Assembly: GCA_024642665.1 (NCBI GenBank)
Contig: JAHEAR010000003.1
Span: forward strand, 64,385-128,384
Origin: Bacteroidota bacterium
GTDB taxonomy: Bacteria; Bacteroidota; Bacteroidia; Chitinophagales; Saprospiraceae
Length of the DNA: 64,000 bases
Direction of reading: 5' to 3'
Under the pieces are notes generated by a model, which was given only the letters and a program-made list of their open reading frames with translations, did not search any database and was not told where the DNA came from. Positions within the stretch are counted from its first letter, which is position 1, and each line of letters opens with the position of its first letter. The translations under genes were made by a program, and so were the position numbers. This document shows, one piece after another, positions 1-25,972 of this stretch.

Positions 1-837
1 ACACTGTTACTGATGGCTTATAATTTGTGGAAAGAGGATATTGCTCCGGCGTTACCGGCCGCCCTTGCGATTGAATATTTTCACAACTTTAGCCTGATGC
101 ATGATGATATCATGGATGAAGCGCCTCTTCGTCGCGGGAAGGAATCAGTTCATACACTCTTCGGTAACAATAGTGCCATTTTAAGTGGTGATGCGATGTT
201 GATACAATGCTTCGATTTATTGCTTGAAGCCGGCAGGGAAAATAATTTGGGAGCCCAACTTTGTGCCCTGATGTCCAAAGCTGCCCTTGAAATTTGTGAA
301 GGTCAGCAATTGGATATGGATTTTGAAAAACTCGATTCTCCCACAGACATTGAATATCTTGAAATGATTCGCCAAAAGACCGCGTGTCTGCTTGGTGCCA
401 GTATGCAAATGGGCGCCCTTCTTGCCGGTGCGACAGAAAGTGACGCGAATCTTCTGTATCAATTTGGAGAAAAAATGGGTCTTGGCTTTCAGATTCAGGA
501 CGATTATCTGGATGTCTTTGGGGATGAAAAATTGACCGGCAAACAAAAAGGAGGTGATATCCTAAGAGGCAAAAAGAACTTTTTATATGTCACAGCTTTC
601 AGCCAACTCAAAGCGGGCGAAAGAGAGGATTTTATCGAAGCATATGCAATGGCTTCCAGAAATCAGGATACAACTGAAATTTATAGTATTTACGAAAAAC
701 TGAAAATTCAGGAATATACGCTGGGACTGCAATCTAAATATTTAAATGAGGCAATGGCTGAATTGCACAAAATTGATTCAGTGGATGTGTCCCAGATTAC
801 CGCTTTGGCAGAAATGCTCTCATTAAGAAATTATTAA
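1..837 (+). CDS. Polyprenyl synthetase family protein, 5' truncated by window edge
   Basis: Reading frame is open from base 1 (TLLLMAYNLWKED); DDIMDEAPLRRG and QIQDDYLDVFGD match the two Asp-rich motifs of trans-isoprenyl diphosphate synthases. Confidence 0.93.
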   Translation, partial: TLLLMAYNLWKEDIAPALPAALAIEYFHNFSLMHDDIMDEAPLRRGKESVHTLFGNNSAILSGDAMLIQCFDLLLEAGRENNLGAQLCALMSKAALEICEGQQLDMDFEKLDSPTDIEYLEMIRQKTACLLGASMQMGALLAGATESDANLLYQFGEKMGLGFQIQDDYLDVFGDEKLTGKQKGGDILRGKKNFLYVTAFSQLKAGEREDFIEAYAMASRNQDTTEIYSIYEKLKIQEYTLGLQSKYLNEAMAELHKIDSVDVSQITALAEMLSLRNY

Positions 838-976
838 TTTTTGTGACAGAGCATGTTTAAGTGCTTATGTTGAACACCAGTGTAGCTTAGGAATCTGATT
901 TACTTGTCCTTTGCGTATCATTTGTCACGGATGTGTTATAATATTTGGAGCACCTTTGTGCCTTTAAATTCATGCT

Positions 977-1774
977 ATGGAAATCATTGGTTATTTAGCT
1001 TCAATACTGATAGGGGTTACACTGGGGCTTATTGGTGGAGGAGGCAGTATTCTAACGGTTCCTGTGCTTGTTTATTTATTTCGTGTAGAGCCTGTATTGG
1101 CTACGGCATATTCCCTGTTTATCGTAGGACTTACGAGTGCAGTAGGTTCAGTAAATTATTTTCGGGTTGGACTGGTCAATGTAAGGACAGCCATCATATT
1201 TGGCATCCCGGCGATTATAGGGGTGTTTATGACGCGGGCATACATTGTTCCTGCCTTACCTGCCGAGGTGACGATCTTGGGAAATTTTGTTTTGACGAAA
1301 GGAGAAATGATGTTATTGCTGTTTTCAATTGTCATGATTGGTGCCTCATTGAGTATGATTCGAGGTAAATCCGATGAGGATGTAATTGAAGAGGGCGAAC
1401 AAAAATTTAATTATCCTTTGATCTTACTCGAAGGGGCTGTTGTCGGGGTGCTGACGGGGTTGGTAGGCGCTGGAGGCGGATTTCTGATTATTCCTGCATT
1501 GGTCGTGTTGAGTAAACTTCCGATGAAACAGGCGGTTGCAACTTCTCTGGTGATTATTGCTGCAAAATCATTGATTGGATTTATGGGGGAAGGTGGCGAA
1601 ACGCAGATTGACTGGCCGTTTTTAGGGATTATTTCAGGGTTCGCCATTTTGGGTATATTTATAGGAACTGCGCTATCCCGAAAAATAGATGGGAAAAAAC
1701 TTAAACCTGCCTTCGGTTGGTTTGTTCTGATCATGGGAATTGGCATTATCCTCAAAGAAACTTTTTTTCAGTAA
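977..1774 (+). CDS. Sulfite exporter TauE/SafE family membrane protein
   Basis: 265 aa multi-TM; paired GLIGGGGSILTVPVLVYL and GLVGAGGGFLIIPALVVL repeats typical of TauE/SafE. Confidence 0.9.
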   Translation: MEIIGYLASILIGVTLGLIGGGGSILTVPVLVYLFRVEPVLATAYSLFIVGLTSAVGSVNYFRVGLVNVRTAIIFGIPAIIGVFMTRAYIVPALPAEVTILGNFVLTKGEMMLLLFSIVMIGASLSMIRGKSDEDVIEEGEQKFNYPLILLEGAVVGVLTGLVGAGGGFLIIPALVVLSKLPMKQAVATSLVIIAAKSLIGFMGEGGETQIDWPFLGIISGFAILGIFIGTALSRKIDGKKLKPAFGWFVLIMGIGIILKETFFQ

Positions 1775-1863
1775 ATTAGTTTTGTAACTATTGTAACGAT
1801 CTGGAAGTATTAAAACCCTCATTTTTGTACCAACAATTGACTTAAAGACATAATATTATACAT

Positions 1864-3279
1864 ATGAACATAGAACAAATTTATACGGGTTGCCTGGCGC
1901 AGGGAGCATATTATATTACGTCCAATGGCGAGGCTGCCATTATTGATCCTTTACGTGAGGTGCAACCTTATCTGGATCGTCTGGAGAGAGATGGCGTAAA
2001 ACTCAAGTATATATTTGAAACGCACTTTCATGCTGATTTTGTTTCCGGTCATGTCGATCTGAGTAAGAAAACAAATGCACCCATTGTTTATGGACCTACA
2101 GCAAAGCCAGATTTTGATTTTATTTCTGCCGCAGATGGTCAGGAGTTCAAATTAGGTGGTGTAACATTCAAAGTATTGCATACGCCCGGACATACGATGG
2201 AGAGTACTTCATACTTACTCAAAGATGAAAACGGGAAAGATGCTGCACTGTTTAGCGGAGATACCTTGTTTATTGGTGATGTTGGAAGACCCGATTTAGC
2301 ACAGAAAGCCGCCAGCATGACGATGGAACAATTAGCCGCTATTTTATATCACTCCTTAAGGGATAAGGTGATGACATTGGCTGATGATGTCGTGGTATAT
2401 CCTGCACATGGTGCCGGTAGTGCCTGCGGTAAAAATATGAGTAAGGAAACTGTCTCCACGATCGGCAATCAAAAGCAGTATAACTATGCACTTCGAGCGG
2501 ATATGACCGAAGCGGAATTTGTGAAAGAAGTAACCGATGGGTTGTTGCCGCCTCCGGCCTATTTTGGAATGAATGTCGCCATGAATAAGCAGGGCTATGA
2601 AAGTTTTGATACGGTCCTGACCAACGGTATGCGGGAGATGTCTGCAAAGGAATTTGAAGTTGCCGCTGAAGAAACAGATGCACTGCTTCTTGATACACGT
2701 TCTCACAGTGAATTTGCCAAAGGCTATATTCCGCAGTCCATAAATATTGGTTTGAAAGGTGATTTTGCCCCCTGGGTAGGAGCACTGATTGTGGATGTAA
2801 AGCAACCAATATTGTTAATCACCGATCCTGGAAAAGAAGAGGAAGCGGTGACTCGTTTAAGTCGCGTCGGTTTTGACAATGTCCTTGGGCATTTGAAAGG
2901 CGGGTTTGCGTCCTGGTTGAAAGAAGACCGGGAGATAGAAACTGTAGAAGTTATTACGGCGGATGAATTTGCTTCCAGAGTTAAGATCGGAGAAGATGTC
3001 ATTGTAGATGTCAGAAAGGAATCTGAATATGAAGCAGAACACGTTGAAGATGCTTACCTCAAACCACTGGCGTATATCAATGATTGGGTCAAGGATATCA
3101 ATCCGAAGGAGCACTTCTATCTGCATTGTGCCGGGGGTTATCGCAGTATGATTGCCGCGAGTATTCTGCAAGCCAGGGGGTATAGAAACTTTACCGAAGT
3201 AGCCGGCGGATTTTCAGCGATTGCAAAAACGGATCTTCCTAAAACGGACTTTATTTGTCAGAGTAAGGTGCTGAAATAG
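1864..3279 (+). CDS. MBL-fold hydrolase fused to two rhodanese domains (persulfide dioxygenase-like)
   Basis: THFHADFVSGH and HTPGHTMES metallo-beta-lactamase motifs; two C-terminal rhodanese-like modules, the second with LHCAGGYRS. Confidence 0.92.
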   Translation: MNIEQIYTGCLAQGAYYITSNGEAAIIDPLREVQPYLDRLERDGVKLKYIFETHFHADFVSGHVDLSKKTNAPIVYGPTAKPDFDFISAADGQEFKLGGVTFKVLHTPGHTMESTSYLLKDENGKDAALFSGDTLFIGDVGRPDLAQKAASMTMEQLAAILYHSLRDKVMTLADDVVVYPAHGAGSACGKNMSKETVSTIGNQKQYNYALRADMTEAEFVKEVTDGLLPPPAYFGMNVAMNKQGYESFDTVLTNGMREMSAKEFEVAAEETDALLLDTRSHSEFAKGYIPQSINIGLKGDFAPWVGALIVDVKQPILLITDPGKEEEAVTRLSRVGFDNVLGHLKGGFASWLKEDREIETVEVITADEFASRVKIGEDVIVDVRKESEYEAEHVEDAYLKPLAYINDWVKDINPKEHFYLHCAGGYRSMIAASILQARGYRNFTEVAGGFSAIAKTDLPKTDFICQSKVLK

Positions 3280-3318
3280 CAATTTTCACAATTTTCATTA
3301 GGACATGTGTTTAGTCCG

Positions 3319-3334
3319 GAAGCCTGGCGGCTTC
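3319..3334. other. Short perfect hairpin GAAGCC-TGGC-GGCTTC downstream of the MBL-rhodanese gene
   Basis: 6-bp perfect inverted repeat; no strong U-tract, so terminator status is uncertain. Confidence 0.4.
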
Positions 3335-3407
3335 TGTGGTTTAGAATGTTGAGTTATATAGCTGAACGCCATACAGGTTTAGTTAAGTTGTATGATGACC
3401 TAAAAAA

Positions 3408-3583
3408 CTAAACTTTCTAAACAAAAAGTGCCTTCGGTGCTTTGTGCTCAACTTTCTCAACACTGTGCCTTTGTACTCAATCTCTATCGCAGAAACAATT
3501 GTAAAATTGAGATAAAAAGCTAAACTTTCTAAACAACAGACACCAAAGGTGACGGGTGCTCAACTTTCTAAACACTGTAACCT
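3408..3583. repeat. Imperfect two-copy direct repeat (about 63 nt, offset 112 nt)
   Basis: CTAAACTTTCTAAACA...GTGCTCAACTTTCTMAACACTGT occurs at about 3408-3470 and 3520-3583. Confidence 0.7.
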
Positions 3584-3635
3584 TAGGCCGACTTGTTTTA
3601 GGATACAATGAAAAATCATTTACAAAACAACCAAT

Positions 3636-4199
3636 ATGTTAGATATAATAAAACAGCCATGGCCGTGGTATATAGCAGGCCCATTGATCGGATTGACCAT
3701 ACCTGCTCTTTTATTATTGGGTAATAAGCCGCTTGGCATTTCTTCTTCATTGCGCCATGTATGCGCGGCCTGCATGCCGGCCAATATTCCTTTTTTTAAT
3801 TACGAATGGAAAAAGGAAATATGGAATTTGTTTTTTGTTGTTGGAATATTAGTGGGAAGTTTGTTAGCCATGACATTTCTGGCTAATCCCCATCCGGTGG
3901 ATATTCATCCGGACCTTGTGCAAGAAATGAAAGGCTATGGGATGACCAATTTAAACGTTGTGATACCGGAGGAAATCGTAAACTGGCAATCGCTCTTTAC
4001 GCTAAAGGGATTCCTGATGATCGTCTTCGGTGGATTTTTGATTGGTTTTGGTACGCGCTATGCCGGCGGATGTACCAGTGGACACACAATCATGGGGCTT
4101 TCCAATTTGCAGTGGCCATCATTGATAGTTACTATTTCTTTTATGATTGGGGGTATCGCCATGGCAAATTTTTTACTACCTCACATACTCACTCTTTAA
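3636..4199 (+). CDS. YeeE/YedE family protein (sulfur transporter), first half
   Basis: YAGGCTSGHTIMG motif and multi-TM topology. Confidence 0.88.
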   Translation: MLDIIKQPWPWYIAGPLIGLTIPALLLLGNKPLGISSSLRHVCAACMPANIPFFNYEWKKEIWNLFFVVGILVGSLLAMTFLANPHPVDIHPDLVQEMKGYGMTNLNVVIPEEIVNWQSLFTLKGFLMIVFGGFLIGFGTRYAGGCTSGHTIMGLSNLQWPSLIVTISFMIGGIAMANFLLPHILTL

Positions 4200-4211
4200 T
4201 TCAATAAGGTT

Positions 4212-4661
4212 ATGAATCAACCAAAAGCAACCATACCAAGCATTAGTTTTTTGTCAAATATAAAGTTCTTATTAGCGGGGTTACTGTTTGGAATTTTTCT
4301 GCTTAAGTCAGAAGTGATCAATTGGTACCGTATACAAGAGATGTTCCGATTTCAATCTTTCCATATGTATGGTATTATTGGGAGTGCCGTGATCGTTGGG
4401 GCGGTTTCTGTTTTACTGATAAAGAAGTTCAAGGTTAAATCGATCAGCGGAGAGCTTATTAGTATTCCGGATAAGCAGTTTAGTAAAGGCCAGATATATG
4501 GTGGTTTGCTGTTTGGTTTTGGCTGGGCTATAACCGGTGCTTGCCCGGGTCCTTTATTTGCCCAGGTTGGATTAGGTGCTACTGTGGTTATTGTCACCTT
4601 ATTGAGTGCGATAGCAGGAACCTGGACTTTTGGGTTTTTGAAGGAGCGGTTGCCGGAGTAG
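4212..4661 (+). CDS. YeeE/YedE family protein (DUF6691-like), second half
   Basis: GFGWAITGACPGPLFAQ motif; 12 nt downstream of the preceding YeeE gene. Confidence 0.88.
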   Translation: MNQPKATIPSISFLSNIKFLLAGLLFGIFLLKSEVINWYRIQEMFRFQSFHMYGIIGSAVIVGAVSVLLIKKFKVKSISGELISIPDKQFSKGQIYGGLLFGFGWAITGACPGPLFAQVGLGATVVIVTLLSAIAGTWTFGFLKERLPE

Positions 4662-4783: not shown

Positions 4784-4833
4784 AATTACTGATTAATCAG
4801 TATAGCGTGTCTTCTCCACAACACTTTATTTTG
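4784..4833 (+). promoter_or_regulatory. Palindromic module A plus -7-like box
   Basis: AATTACTGATTAATCAGTATAG (4784-4805, containing the perfect 16-bp palindrome TACTGATTAATCAGTA), 20-nt spacer, TTATTTTG (4826-4833). Confidence 0.55.
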
Positions 4834-5041
4834 CATTAGATTAGGATTCCAGAAGGGTAGTGAATCCATGAGATAATGAGCATGTGGTCAAGTAAGCAGT
4901 TTATATTTCCATTTATTATTTATTAAACCTAAGCATGCGAATGCAAAAGGTAGGGATAGACTCGTGAGGTGGAACTCTGAAAATGCTTATGAAATACTAT
5001 TTTGATAGGGTATATGCACGCCATCATCTTCTTTTTTTTTA

Positions 5042-5884
5042 ATGATGAAGCAATTCTTTTTTACCATAAAATTCTTGGCTATAATTCTTTTAGCAGGACA
5101 AACTGTTTTCGCTCAGGATACCATACTACTTGATAAGGCATTTATTTCTCACGCAGATGTACTTCAAATTTCTGAGCCAGAATTTTCAGACAAGGTGTTT
5201 GAATTCAAGATAGGCGAATATAAAGTACTTTCAACCAATGGAGATTGCAAAACAACTAATCGCAGCCGGAAGAATTTATTCGGTACTAAATTTGACAAGT
5301 CGATTAAAAAATGCTCATTTGAAGTCAGGCATAAAGTCTCAGGAATATCCTTGATCGTAACCGAAGAGACTAATAGCACACGCACACGTTATCCTTTGAA
5401 GTGGCTTGGAAGTGGTGATACAAATGAATGGGATGAAGAGGAGGCGGGACCAATGATTTCAGAATCAATGGCTAGTGGTTTTAGTGCAACGATACGAATG
5501 GACGATGATCCCAGTGGCGAATGGACATTATTCATCAATGTGTCCGAAAAAAATCCCCAATCAGGTCCGATGAATATCATTTTGACGAATGGTGATATGC
5601 TGATACAAATATTTCCGGCAAGTTCAAATCCTGATTTTGACAGGAATAGTCCTCTCAAGAGCGTCTTTCGCGATTTTGCAACTGGTTTTGAATTTCATTT
5701 AGACGGCTCTAGTATTGGGGCATTGCAAACTTATGGTGGAGCAGTGTCTACGCGCACACCTGATACGCATCAGTTTTCCGGTTGCATGGCATGGATGGAT
5801 TCTTCGTTGGATATAAAAACGAGGCATATACTATGTTCGGCCATGGCTACTTTTTTATTGATGAATACACTTTATAAAAGTTAA
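5042..5884 (+). CDS. Hypothetical secreted protein
   Basis: 280 aa ORF with signal peptide (MKQFFFTIKFLAIILLAGQTVFAQ); no recognisable family. Confidence 0.75.
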   Translation: MMKQFFFTIKFLAIILLAGQTVFAQDTILLDKAFISHADVLQISEPEFSDKVFEFKIGEYKVLSTNGDCKTTNRSRKNLFGTKFDKSIKKCSFEVRHKVSGISLIVTEETNSTRTRYPLKWLGSGDTNEWDEEEAGPMISESMASGFSATIRMDDDPSGEWTLFINVSEKNPQSGPMNIILTNGDMLIQIFPASSNPDFDRNSPLKSVFRDFATGFEFHLDGSSIGALQTYGGAVSTRTPDTHQFSGCMAWMDSSLDIKTRHILCSAMATFLLMNTLYKS

Positions 5885-6193
5885 ATATGTAGCTGCATAA
5901 TGAGGAGCGGGTTGTTTTACACAAAGCATTTCTTGGGGCAAAAAACCTTTTTCCCTTTCATCGTAGTAATACTTTCAGGGTTTGATCTTTGCGCTGAAAA
6001 TTGTCGATATAGATATTTGCTTTTACCCTGGACAAAAGAAACGTTTCTTATCCATGGCAAATGGCTGTCAAGTGGAATCTGTTGGTGCCCGATACCGATT
6101 TAGCTTCTTGATGGAATTAGCTACCTCATCCCCCTGGTTATTCGGAATCCGGCATCACAAAGAAGCTCCCAATGCAATACTTCTTTCTTAGTT

Positions 6194-6243
6194 AATTACT
6201 GATTTATCGGTATAGGACGACCGTCTGTAAGGGAATAGTTTTG
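6194..6243 (+). promoter_or_regulatory. Palindromic module B plus -7 box upstream of TonB receptor
   Basis: AATTACTGATTTATCGGTATAG (6194-6215), 20-nt spacer, TAGTTTTG (6236-6243, matches TAnnTTTG). Confidence 0.6.
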
Positions 6244-6282: not shown

Positions 6283-9090
6283 ATGAAACTTCATTTATTT
6301 TTAACCTGGATTGTATGTTGTGCTGTAACCATTGATCAGCCTGCCGCGCAATCTGTCTTAAGAGGAAAGGTTATAGATAATGTCACCGGCGAACCACTTA
6401 TTGGCGCTATTATAGGCATTAAAGGAACTACAAATGGTGTGGTTACTGATTTTAGCGGGGAGTATTTTCTAAAGTTGGAAAGTGCTCCGCCCATTACCCT
6501 GATCATTTCCTTTACTGGATTTAAAACAGTGACTCTGGAGGTACTTGATGTTTCCATCTTTACCATTACACGATTGGAAGAGGAAATTATTGAATTGGCA
6601 TCTGCAGAAATCCTTGGGGAAAGAATTCCGGAGAAATTTAAGAAGTCAGCACTGGTTGTCGAGTCCCTTGACATAGAAGGAATCAAACAAACCCCAAACT
6701 TAAATTTTTATGATGGGCTCGGCAAGTTGAAAGATGTAGATATCTCAGGTTCGCTGGGGTATAAAATAATTAATACACGAGGTTTTAATTCGACAACACC
6801 TGTAAGGTCTCTGCAGATCATTGATGGGGTAGACAACCAGGCGCCGGGACTGAATTTCTCACTCGGAAATTTTCTGGGGGTATCTGAGCTGGATGTATTG
6901 AGAGTAGATATTATCGTGGGCGCAAATGGCGCTTATTACGGTCCCAATGCTTTCAACGGCGTGATCAGTATGGAAACGAAAAGCCCATTCTTTCACAAAG
7001 GGCTGTCAGCAATTGTTAAGGCCGGGGAACGCAATTTATTTGAAGGGTCTTTGCGTTTCGCAGAGGTTTGGAAGAATAAAAATGGAAATGAGATTTTCGG
7101 GTATAAATTAAATTTCTCCGTGTTGTATGCGGATGACTGGAAGGCAGAAAATTATGATCCGATTACTGCAAGTAAAGTGCCGAAGTCTAATCCCGGAAGG
7201 TACAATGCCGTAAACATTTATGGGGATGATTATTATATCACCAATGACTTTTCAGGCCAAAGTAACTTGTTTCAAAATCCGGGACTTGGCCTTTTTTACC
7301 GCACGGGCTATAAGGAAGTTGATCTGGTAGATAATAAAGCTGAGAATTATAAAGCCGGCCTGGCCCTGCATCTGCGCACCAATCCTGCCAATACATTTGA
7401 ATCACCCGAATTGATAGTTTCTTCAAATTTTGGATCCGGAACAACGATATATCAAGGCGATAATCGGTTTAGCCTTAGAGACATCATGTTCTTTCAATAC
7501 CGGCTGGAGTTCCGTCAAAAAGACAACTATTTTATCCGGGCCTATTATACGCATGAGGATGCAGGGCGATCCTATGATCCCTATTTCACAGCATTACGAT
7601 TGCAGGAAATGAGCAAGACTGATCAACAGTGGGGAACCGATTACAGGTCAAACTGGAAGGAGAACTGGGCAAAAAGAATGGCATCTCTCCCGCCTTATCC
7701 TAAACCCATGATTATCCCTCCTGACTCTTTTTATTTTGATTATGCTGCAGCAGATCTTTGGTTAGCCACACATGCAGATTCACTCGCTGTTTGGCATGCG
7801 GCTACAGCTGATTGGGCCAACTTGAAAAATATCAGGAATCCTCCGGCTGTTCAGGATTTTCTGGTACCGGGAACGGATAGATTTAATGCGGCCTTTCAGG
7901 ATATCACCTCCAGATACAATAATGAAGAAGGTGGAACAAGATTTTTTGATCAATCCGCTCTTTTCCATGCTCAGGGGGAATTTGCATTTTCTACGCGATC
8001 CTTATTTGATGTAAAACTGGGGGCAAGCTTCCGACAATATGCTCCAAATTCAAAAGGAACCATTTTCAGTGATACCACCGGAACAAGAATCACCAATAAA
8101 GCGATAGGCCTTTACGGTGGATTGGAAAAGAAATTATTTGCTGACAAGCTCACAGTATCCGCTACGTTGCGGATGGATAAGAATCAGAACTTTAAATGGA
8201 TTCAAACTCCTGCCGCAAGTTTAGTCTATGCCGCTTCTCCAAAAACATTCTTCCGGGCTTCATTTTCGAGTGCGATCAGAAATCCAACCCTTGCTGATCA
8301 ATACTTGTACCTCAATGTAGGTCCGGCTATACTGGCAGGTCATATAGGTGCCGTAGATAGTTTGATTACCCTGGAGTCGTTTGATGATTACCGCAATTTT
8401 AGGAGCGCTGATACGCTGGACTATTTTTCTATTGACGCAATACGACCCGAACAAGTACAGACGATTGAAGTAGGGTTGAGAACTACGTTATTCCGAAACC
8501 TGTATGTCGATTTAGGGTATTACCGGAGTTCGTATAAAAATTTTCTCGGTTATCTGATCGGTCTCACAGGGGATTTTCCTGATGATCCTCTTGCGTTTCC
8601 TGAAAATATTCAGGTCTACCGGTATTCAGCCAATTCTGTTCATACAGTCACAAGTCAGGGATTTAGTATAGGGTTGAATTATTATCTATCCCGTCAAATT
8701 TTATTGTCCGGCAACTATAGTCTGAATCAATTACGCAAAACTGTGGCTGATGACCCTATCATCCCTGCCTATAATACGCCTGAAAACAAATTTAATCTTG
8801 GAATATCCGGCAATGATATGCGTATCACAAATACCGGTATACTTAAAAGTGTAGGGTTTAGTATAAACTACAAATGGGTGGAGGGTTTTCAATTTGAAGG
8901 GTCTCCTCAGTTTACCGGCTATGTGCCTGCGTATGGAATAGTGGATGCACAGATAAGTGCATACCAGGAAAAAATAAAAACCACATGTAAAGTGGGAGTC
9001 AGCAATATGTTCAACAATAAGCATTATGAAACCTATGGAGGTCCAAAGGTAGGCCGGCTGGCTTATGTCAGCATCGCCTATCATTTTTAA
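6283..9090 (+). CDS. TonB-dependent receptor with N-terminal carboxypeptidase-like regulatory domain
   Basis: Signal peptide; VLRGKVIDNVTGEPLIGAIIGIKGTTNGVVTDFSGEYFL; plug and beta-barrel; ends YVSIAYHF. Confidence 0.94.
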   Translation: MKLHLFLTWIVCCAVTIDQPAAQSVLRGKVIDNVTGEPLIGAIIGIKGTTNGVVTDFSGEYFLKLESAPPITLIISFTGFKTVTLEVLDVSIFTITRLEEEIIELASAEILGERIPEKFKKSALVVESLDIEGIKQTPNLNFYDGLGKLKDVDISGSLGYKIINTRGFNSTTPVRSLQIIDGVDNQAPGLNFSLGNFLGVSELDVLRVDIIVGANGAYYGPNAFNGVISMETKSPFFHKGLSAIVKAGERNLFEGSLRFAEVWKNKNGNEIFGYKLNFSVLYADDWKAENYDPITASKVPKSNPGRYNAVNIYGDDYYITNDFSGQSNLFQNPGLGLFYRTGYKEVDLVDNKAENYKAGLALHLRTNPANTFESPELIVSSNFGSGTTIYQGDNRFSLRDIMFFQYRLEFRQKDNYFIRAYYTHEDAGRSYDPYFTALRLQEMSKTDQQWGTDYRSNWKENWAKRMASLPPYPKPMIIPPDSFYFDYAAADLWLATHADSLAVWHAATADWANLKNIRNPPAVQDFLVPGTDRFNAAFQDITSRYNNEEGGTRFFDQSALFHAQGEFAFSTRSLFDVKLGASFRQYAPNSKGTIFSDTTGTRITNKAIGLYGGLEKKLFADKLTVSATLRMDKNQNFKWIQTPAASLVYAASPKTFFRASFSSAIRNPTLADQYLYLNVGPAILAGHIGAVDSLITLESFDDYRNFRSADTLDYFSIDAIRPEQVQTIEVGLRTTLFRNLYVDLGYYRSSYKNFLGYLIGLTGDFPDDPLAFPENIQVYRYSANSVHTVTSQGFSIGLNYYLSRQILLSGNYSLNQLRKTVADDPIIPAYNTPENKFNLGISGNDMRITNTGILKSVGFSINYKWVEGFQFEGSPQFTGYVPAYGIVDAQISAYQEKIKTTCKVGVSNMFNNKHYETYGGPKVGRLAYVSIAYHF

Positions 9091-9124
9091 AAGCAATCAT
9101 TATTCATTTTATAAATCTAAAATC

Positions 9125-10678
9125 ATGAAAAAACATTTGTACGCTATTTTTTTGATGTTTTTTACCTGGGCGGCTTCAGCACAATCTATTAGATACCTGG
9201 AGGAAGTCTATGATACCGTTAAGATTACCAAGGATATTGTTTATGGCGAAAATGCCACAGTCTTGTATTTAGAATTCTTTGGACAAGCGATCAAAGAACC
9301 ATTGTTGTTGGATCTGTATGAGCCGGTATCAAATCAAGGTGAGCAAAGTATTGCCCGTCCTTTGATTATCTATTTTCATTCCGGCAATTTTCTTCCATTT
9401 CCTCAAAATCAAAATGTTGTGGGGACAAGAAAGGATAGCTCTGTTGTTGAGATGTGCAGACGACTGGCCAAATGTGGATATGTCGTAGCCTCGGCGGATT
9501 ACCGGCTTGGATGGAACCCATTAGCCACTTCTGTTGATGATCGAAAACTGGGATTGATTAATGCAGCTTATCGCGGTGTACAGGATGCCAATACATGCAT
9601 TCGGTATTTTAAAAAAGCGATGGTCGAATCATTACTTCCTGTTTTGATTGACACCAGTCGGATTATTTTGTGGGGGGATGATTCCGGTGGTTATCTGGCA
9701 CTGAATGCAGGATGCCTGGACCGGTATGAAAAAATTCCATTGGCATCCGATGGTAAGTTCTGGTATGCTGGTTTATTTCCTATGGTGATAGAGTCATTAA
9801 ATGGGGATGTTGAAGCAAAGCAATATGGCATCAACTCACCGGCGATTCCGGGACTGCCATACCCCGAAGGGGATACCCTATGTTATGTCAACCATCCTGA
9901 ATATAGCTCCAAATTCAGCGTAACAGTCAATATGTCCGGCGCCGTTGGGGATAGCGCATGGATTGAGGAAGGTCAGCCACCGGTTATTTCCGTACACGCG
10001 CCTTATGATTTAACCACGCCTTATGAGGAGGGAATTGTCTATGTTAACATAGGCGAGGAGTATCTTGAAGTGATTGAAGTCCAGGGATCTTCTTTGGTCA
10101 ATTCACTTTCCACTCAATTGGGTAATAATGAAGGTATTGGCATGCCGGCTAACGCTACGCCATTTCAACAAGCTGTATCCGATGTAGCGTATGCAAGAAA
10201 TGGAGGAAGAGAAGCCTTATACCCCATCATTGGCGATACGATTACAGATGCTAATCCGTGGATCTTCTGGGATTGTGAGAGTAATGTAAATTGTACCAAA
10301 GGATTAGAGGTTAATCCGCATATGTCAAGGGAAAAAGCAAAAGTTTACGCGGATACGATATTGGCTTATGTCCTTCCACGTTTGTATAATGTACTTGATT
10401 TGCAAACGGTCGCGACCAAAGAAGTACTTATGACTGATGAAAGGATGATTAGTATTTCTCCTAACCCTGCTTCTGATGCTATACTGGTTTCCACAGAACA
10501 AGAAAAGCCAATCCGGGGCATAAGTGTGTTTGACATGAGAGGTGTTTTGGTACATCAATACACCAACCTCCAGACGTCATCTTTCCGAATGCCGGTCAAT
10601 CGCTTAGTATCCGGTCAATATATTCTTAAACTGCTCTTTGACGATGGCATTGTTGCTCGCATGTTTATTGTGAATTAA
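9125..10678 (+). CDS. Alpha/beta-hydrolase-fold protein with T9SS type A sorting domain
   Basis: Signal peptide from Met at 9125 (MKKHLYAIFLMFFTWAASAQ); IIYFHSGNFLPF, ADYRLGW, WGDDSGGYLALNAG; C-terminal SPNPASDAILV...GQYILKLLFDDG. Confidence 0.85.
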   Translation: MKKHLYAIFLMFFTWAASAQSIRYLEEVYDTVKITKDIVYGENATVLYLEFFGQAIKEPLLLDLYEPVSNQGEQSIARPLIIYFHSGNFLPFPQNQNVVGTRKDSSVVEMCRRLAKCGYVVASADYRLGWNPLATSVDDRKLGLINAAYRGVQDANTCIRYFKKAMVESLLPVLIDTSRIILWGDDSGGYLALNAGCLDRYEKIPLASDGKFWYAGLFPMVIESLNGDVEAKQYGINSPAIPGLPYPEGDTLCYVNHPEYSSKFSVTVNMSGAVGDSAWIEEGQPPVISVHAPYDLTTPYEEGIVYVNIGEEYLEVIEVQGSSLVNSLSTQLGNNEGIGMPANATPFQQAVSDVAYARNGGREALYPIIGDTITDANPWIFWDCESNVNCTKGLEVNPHMSREKAKVYADTILAYVLPRLYNVLDLQTVATKEVLMTDERMISISPNPASDAILVSTEQEKPIRGISVFDMRGVLVHQYTNLQTSSFRMPVNRLVSGQYILKLLFDDGIVARMFIVN

Positions 10679-25770: not shown

Positions 25771-25953
25771 ATGGCTAAAGTAAAAGTAACACAAGTCAAA
25801 AGTTTTATCGATCGGCCGAAAAGCCAGAAGGATACGATTATAGCCTTAGGACTAGGAAAAATAAACAGATCAAAAGTGCATGAAGTAAATCCTCAGATAC
25901 AAGGGATGATTGCTAAAGTAGCACACTTGATTACAGTGGAAAATATTGATTAA
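25771..25953 (+). CDS. rpmD: 50S ribosomal protein L30
   Basis: KVKVTQVKSFIDRPKSQKDTIIALGLGKINRSKVHEVNPQIQGMIAKVAHLI. Confidence 0.97.
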   Translation: MAKVKVTQVKSFIDRPKSQKDTIIALGLGKINRSKVHEVNPQIQGMIAKVAHLITVENID

Positions 25954-25972
25954 GCAATAATCGAATAAGCAT

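Follow-up and report, generated by a model that had tools for sequence, protein, structure and literature searches.

The window, i.e. the whole stretch of 64,000 nucleotides analysed here, stems from contig C31 of a Saprospiraceae genome of 3.7 Mb (72 contigs, 98.3% complete). It contains two copies of a palindromic, operator-like element, each of them followed at a constant distance by a box resembling the -7 element of Bacteroidota promoters. The features concerned are listed in the table. The genes for the TonB-dependent receptor and the hydrolase behind the second copy probably share one operon. The secreted hypothetical protein encoded behind the first copy showed no match to any Pfam or NCBIfam family, and a search of 118 further genomes from the family found no relative of it. 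A sulfur-related gene block (13-4661) stops just 5' of the first operator copy and is devoid of an operator copy of its own; it codes for a TauE/SafE exporter, a persulfide dioxygenase-like protein with metallo-beta-lactamase and rhodanese parts, and two YeeE/Sulf_transp proteins.

Table. Operator copies, promoter boxes and predicted target genes in the window.
Feature	Position	Strand	Remarks
Operator copy 1, perfect 7-2-7 palindrome TACTGATTAATCAGTA	4787..4802	+	16-mer also found 3' of PAS-LuxR regulator genes
-7 box TTATTTTG	4826..4833	+	5/6 match to TAnnTTTG, 23 nt 3' of the copy-1 palindrome
Gene for secreted hypothetical protein, 280 aa	5042..5884	+	Predicted target of copy 1
Operator copy 2, TACTGATTTATCGGTA	6197..6212	+	
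-7 box TAGTTTTG	6236..6243	+	6/6 match, 23 nt 3' of the copy-2 palindrome
Gene for TonB-dependent receptor with CarbopepD_reg_2 domain, 935 aa	6283..9090	+	Predicted target of copy 2
Gene for BD-FAE-type alpha/beta hydrolase with T9SS sorting tail	9065..10678	+	Overlaps the receptor gene

A preliminary description of this DNA had reported two 22-mers (4784-4805 and 6194-6215) with 20 of 22 positions identical, the first containing a perfect 16-bp palindrome, and a -7-like box 20 nt behind either of them. All of this was reproduced, the gap of 20 nt being equivalent to 23 nt if counted from the 16-bp core. The cores read TACTGAT-TA-ATCAGTA and TACTGAT-TT-ATCGGTA and represent two inverted heptamers with a 2-bp spacer, i.e. 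a 7-2-7 layout, while the flanks of the two copies are unrelated. The heptamers fit the sequence TACYNMT, which is the NarL heptamer consensus. With the boxes set at -12 to -5, following the published position convention (PMC9723704), the palindromes are centred at about -43.5 and directly adjoin the -33 region, which supports the class II activator position proposed before. The same geometry predicts transcription starts near 4838 and 6248. The implied leader of the first transcript is about 204 nt long, compared to mostly 15-35 nt at other loci carrying the module.

Genome-wide statistics were obtained by pattern searches with reversed-pattern controls. The motif TACTGATTWATCRGTA occurs without mismatch at exactly three places in the 3.7-Mb genome, two of them in the window and the third on contig C64 (C64:66725), where the box TATTTTTG follows 23 nt later and the module lies just 5' of a gene for a secreted lipoprotein; homologues of this lipoprotein were found. 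The boxes of the three copies match in 5/6, 6/6 and 6/6 positions, all at a gap of 23 nt. Given a background frequency of about 0.0076 for a box with at least 5/6 matches at a given position, the probability of three of three is about 4e-7. The reversed-pattern control at up to one mismatch gave no hit in the genome, and the fixed-gap pattern was detected neither on the reverse strand nor in the reversed control. If up to three mismatches were allowed in the fixed-gap search of the whole genome, only one further site (C6:2135) was added to the three exact copies. The three copies with the same spacing and the empty controls argue for a real regulatory module. The earlier suggestion that the gene at 5042 and the operon at 6283-10678 may be co-regulated is supported.

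The further copies expected from the preliminary description were present not only on contig C64 but also in related bacteria. Searching 399 genomes of the order for the module at up to two mismatches resulted in matches in 14 genomes, compared to two control matches. When any gap from 13 to 35 nt and any base at heptamer position 5 were allowed, 10 of the 16 matches fell at a gap of 23 nt (binomial probability of about 1.5e-10), and the other gaps occurred as singletons or pairs. At seven loci (L041, L048, L049, L051, L052, L053 and L054), a gene of the PAS-GerE type, its GerE domain being C-terminal, ends just 5' of the module on the same strand, and a gene for a secreted or outer-membrane protein follows at most of them. 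The linked regulators scanned showed matches to GerE and PAS_3 (the latter weak in L041 and L053) and none to a receiver (REC) domain. No GerE gene was found beside the module at L045 and L050, and the neighbours at L042, L044, L046 and L047 also depart from the GerE pattern. In L046 and L047, TACTCAT-type modules are flanked by a LytTR-like gene on one side and a DUF1800 gene on the other; L048 and L054, which belong to the same genus, do carry the GerE gene. Each of the other genomes with a match contained a single module in this order-wide count, whereas the genome of the window contains three at that stringency, which suggests a spread of the operator to unlinked promoters in this genome.

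For the converse search, four of the regulators were used as queries with one genome per species, which yielded 277 relatives. From these we retained 80 loci, assigned by their record titles to Chitinophagales, Cytophagales, Flavobacteriales, Bacteroidales and Saprospiraceae, apart from a few bins with other titles. We scanned 600 nt 3' of each regulator stop in an operator-agnostic way, accepting any 16-bp palindrome (at least 6/8 pairs) together with a TAnnTTTG box (at least 5/6). Of the 79 regulator loci, 69 showed this combination at a gap of 23 nt, and no other gap was represented at more than eight. A relaxed search detected the module with TACTGATWWATCAGTA at 75 of 80 loci. The palindromes at these loci are TACTGATAAATCAGTA, TACTGATTAATCAGTA (identical to the copy at 4787 in the window; e.g. 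at L147, L145, L126, L127, L135 and L178) and close variants, and they lie 0-120 nt, mostly 0-20 nt, past the stop codon of the regulator gene. L147 even combines the exact palindrome of the window with the exact second box TAGTTTTG. Strong conservation is confined to the palindrome, the TTG following it and the box, and does not extend to the remaining spacer; the copies in the genome of the window do not contain the trailing TTG. The -7 box is usually imperfect, with G as first base in about 74% of the sites. The usual target gene codes for an outer-membrane-type protein of about 778 aa with a CarbopepD_reg domain. Because the TonB receptor of the window shows only distant similarity to it, it does not represent the same gene.

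The regulators of the various loci differ in the residue following the sequence 'TVNTHR' of the recognition helix, and this residue varies together with position 5 of the heptamers. It is Q at 68 loci, where G occupies position 5 in 134 of 136 half-sites, whereas Y is found at L099, L100, L103 and L217 with the left half TACTAAT, and K or R at L041, L048, L054 and L092 with the left half TACTCAT. Fisher's test gives about 5e-11 for this covariation, a value that is overstated since the related sequences are not independent. From this covariation we propose a code of one residue for one base, in which Q would go with G, Y with A, and K or R with C.

The preliminary description had placed the regulator outside of the window, which agrees with the lack of any detectable GerE gene on contig C31. 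Just one GerE protein of the genome lacks a receiver domain and measures about 250 aa; it is encoded on contig C6 by a gene starting at the contig edge. It carries the sequence 'TVDTHRQ', whose Q predicts a G at heptamer position 5, and a module of the form TCATGATGTATCACTA-N23-TTACTTTG is located 75 nt past its stop codon, 5' of a lipoprotein gene. The module at C6:2135, which is the fourth-best of the genome under the motif of the preliminary description, lies 5' of another gene for a secreted protein. The two sites on this contig, TCATGATGTATCACTA and TCATGATTTATCAGTA, are imperfect palindromes; the later pattern for the C6 pair was written with both in view and matches them at 0-1 mismatch by construction, while C6:2135 had been found independently by the earlier fixed-gap search. 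The order of elements on this contig (L084, 1-2220) is a LuxR-HTH gene, a module, the lipoprotein gene, a 95-aa HTH frame, the second module and the gene for the secreted protein. The 95-aa frame between the two modules is a partial HTH duplicate with 72% identity to the first HTH, and the tandem arrangement looks like a decayed duplication. In our judgement, this stand-alone LuxR-HTH protein is the probable cognate regulator of the window modules, at somewhat better than even odds. The assignment is the weakest link of the reconstruction because no PAS domain was detected in the N-terminal part of the protein, in which GerE was the only domain found. Its match to the PAS-GerE family is clear in the HTH only, and the search for orthologues gave other matches mainly over the HTH and no clean orthologue. 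A genome of the same genus (G001) contains neither a close relative of the C6 protein nor the 16-mer, which is consistent with the assignment but weak. Another regulator could also be missing from the 98.3%-complete genome.

Taken together, we assign a probability of roughly 0.83 to the reading that the window modules are class II activator-dependent promoters of a LuxR-HTH (GerE) one-component regulator. A dimer of this regulator, with its NarL/FixJ-type DNA-binding domain, would occupy the 7-2-7 palindrome, whose centre at about -43.5 places it beside the -33 region, and would contact RNA polymerase, which may then start with the Bacteroidota primary sigma factor from the imperfect TAnnTTTG box. 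The usual form of the system in Bacteroidota would comprise one PAS-GerE gene, the operator-promoter right past its stop codon and one target gene for an outer-membrane or secreted protein. In the genome of the window, the operator would also be used away from the regulator, resulting in co-activation of the secreted-protein gene, the TonB receptor/hydrolase operon and the lipoprotein gene on C64. The centre of the palindromes falls within the range of about -41 to -45 expected for class II activation, and the fixed operator-to-box distance that also belongs to it was observed in the three own copies and at 69/79 loci of the relatives, and the same 69/79 (strict) or 75/80 (relaxed) tie the operator to GerE-domain regulators, as expected for a NarL-type site. 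A further step, to which we give an even chance, is that a phylum-wide family of PAS-LuxR activators uses the recognition code with one adjacent surface-protein gene each, the C6 protein being a divergent paralogue that was rewired in this lineage to a small, scattered surface-gene regulon.

The closest known parallel is the NarL/NarP system of E. coli. NarL binds to 7-2-7 inverted repeats (PMC9314961, PMC2718512) and activates the ogt1052 promoter from a site at -44.5 (PMC9314961). The operators described here share with this promoter the inverted heptamers with a 2-bp spacer, the single promoter-near site and the class II-like position, but differ in the TAnnTTTG-type promoter, in the G (or A) at heptamer position 5 and in the linked regulator, a stand-alone protein of the PAS-GerE type lacking a receiver domain. 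NarL/FixJ response regulators such as FixJ, VraR, DesR and NarL share the GerE DNA-binding domain, but possess a phosphorylated receiver domain and, as two-component systems, a partner kinase, whereas PAS_3 and GerE were found in the linked regulators and an unassigned N-terminal part precedes GerE in the C6 protein. The best match with a solved structure is PDB 3clo, a LuxR-HTH 'transcriptional regulator' which we take to be from Bacteroides thetaiotaomicron; it matches the PAS-GerE regulators over nearly the full length (E 1.9e-23) and is also the best match of the C6 HTH (E 7.4e-11). No publication, operator or target was found for 3clo.

Several REC-GerE proteins are encoded in the genome, and the one on contig C22 has Q at the position expected to read base 5 (TIKTHVQ), so that the operators may belong to a two-component regulator of the NarL/FixJ type instead of the C6 protein. 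We regard this as unlikely, since the operator adjoins stand-alone PAS-GerE genes in the relatives, the extra modules of the genome itself adjoin the C6 gene, and most REC-GerE proteins among those listed carry K or R at that position. Still less probable is a repressor operator which blocks the -33 region and whose spacing merely reflects the promoter overlap. The palindrome is indeed placed as such an operator could be, and NarL-family proteins can also repress. However, repression would not need the exact 23-nt gap seen at 69/79 regulator loci, the usually imperfect -7 box is typical of activator-dependent promoters, and the known NarL site at -44.5 is an activating one (PMC9314961); because of this nearby centre, the imperfect boxes and the invariant spacing, we favour class II activation. 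The regulator family named in the preliminary description was Crp/Fnr, and a palindromic 16-mer at this position would fit, since activator sites of Crp/Fnr class II promoters are also centred in the low -40s. Crp and Fnr consensus sites are TGA-N6-TCA. The window sites show TGA-N4-TCA instead, as in the 7-2-7 layout of NarL, and both this half-site spacing and the strong genomic linkage to LuxR-HTH (GerE) regulators in other Bacteroidota render this family very improbable. Operators of GntR (YtrA), TetR and ArsR regulators were also considered and set aside when the link to LuxR-HTH genes emerged. That the palindromes are due to chance, or form a dispersed repeat with no role in regulation, is practically negligible: the palindrome without box is near background in the genome at two mismatches, but this reading is contradicted by the three exact copies sharing one spacing with empty controls, by the unrelated flanks, and by the conservation of only operator, trailing TTG and -7 box across the phylum.

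NarL-type operators and GerE regulators as such are already known, whereas a literature search covering mainly openly accessible journals gave no account of this operator or of the PAS-GerE/operator/target module. For a widespread family of Bacteroidota regulators, which includes a relative of 3clo, the analysis supplies a putative operator together with its promoter geometry and target, and it identifies a small predicted surface-gene regulon in the genome of the window. With these elements, the targets of PAS-GerE regulators become predictable from sequence, and the proposed specificity code is directly testable. Two minor observations concern further sites. A partial palindrome TATTGATTAAGCAATA at 25944-25959 of the window deviates from the motif by three mismatches on either strand. 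One of the relatives (L111) contains three copies of the module, one of which (2924-2970, + strand) lies 5' of the PAS-GerE gene itself, and its position suggests autoregulation.
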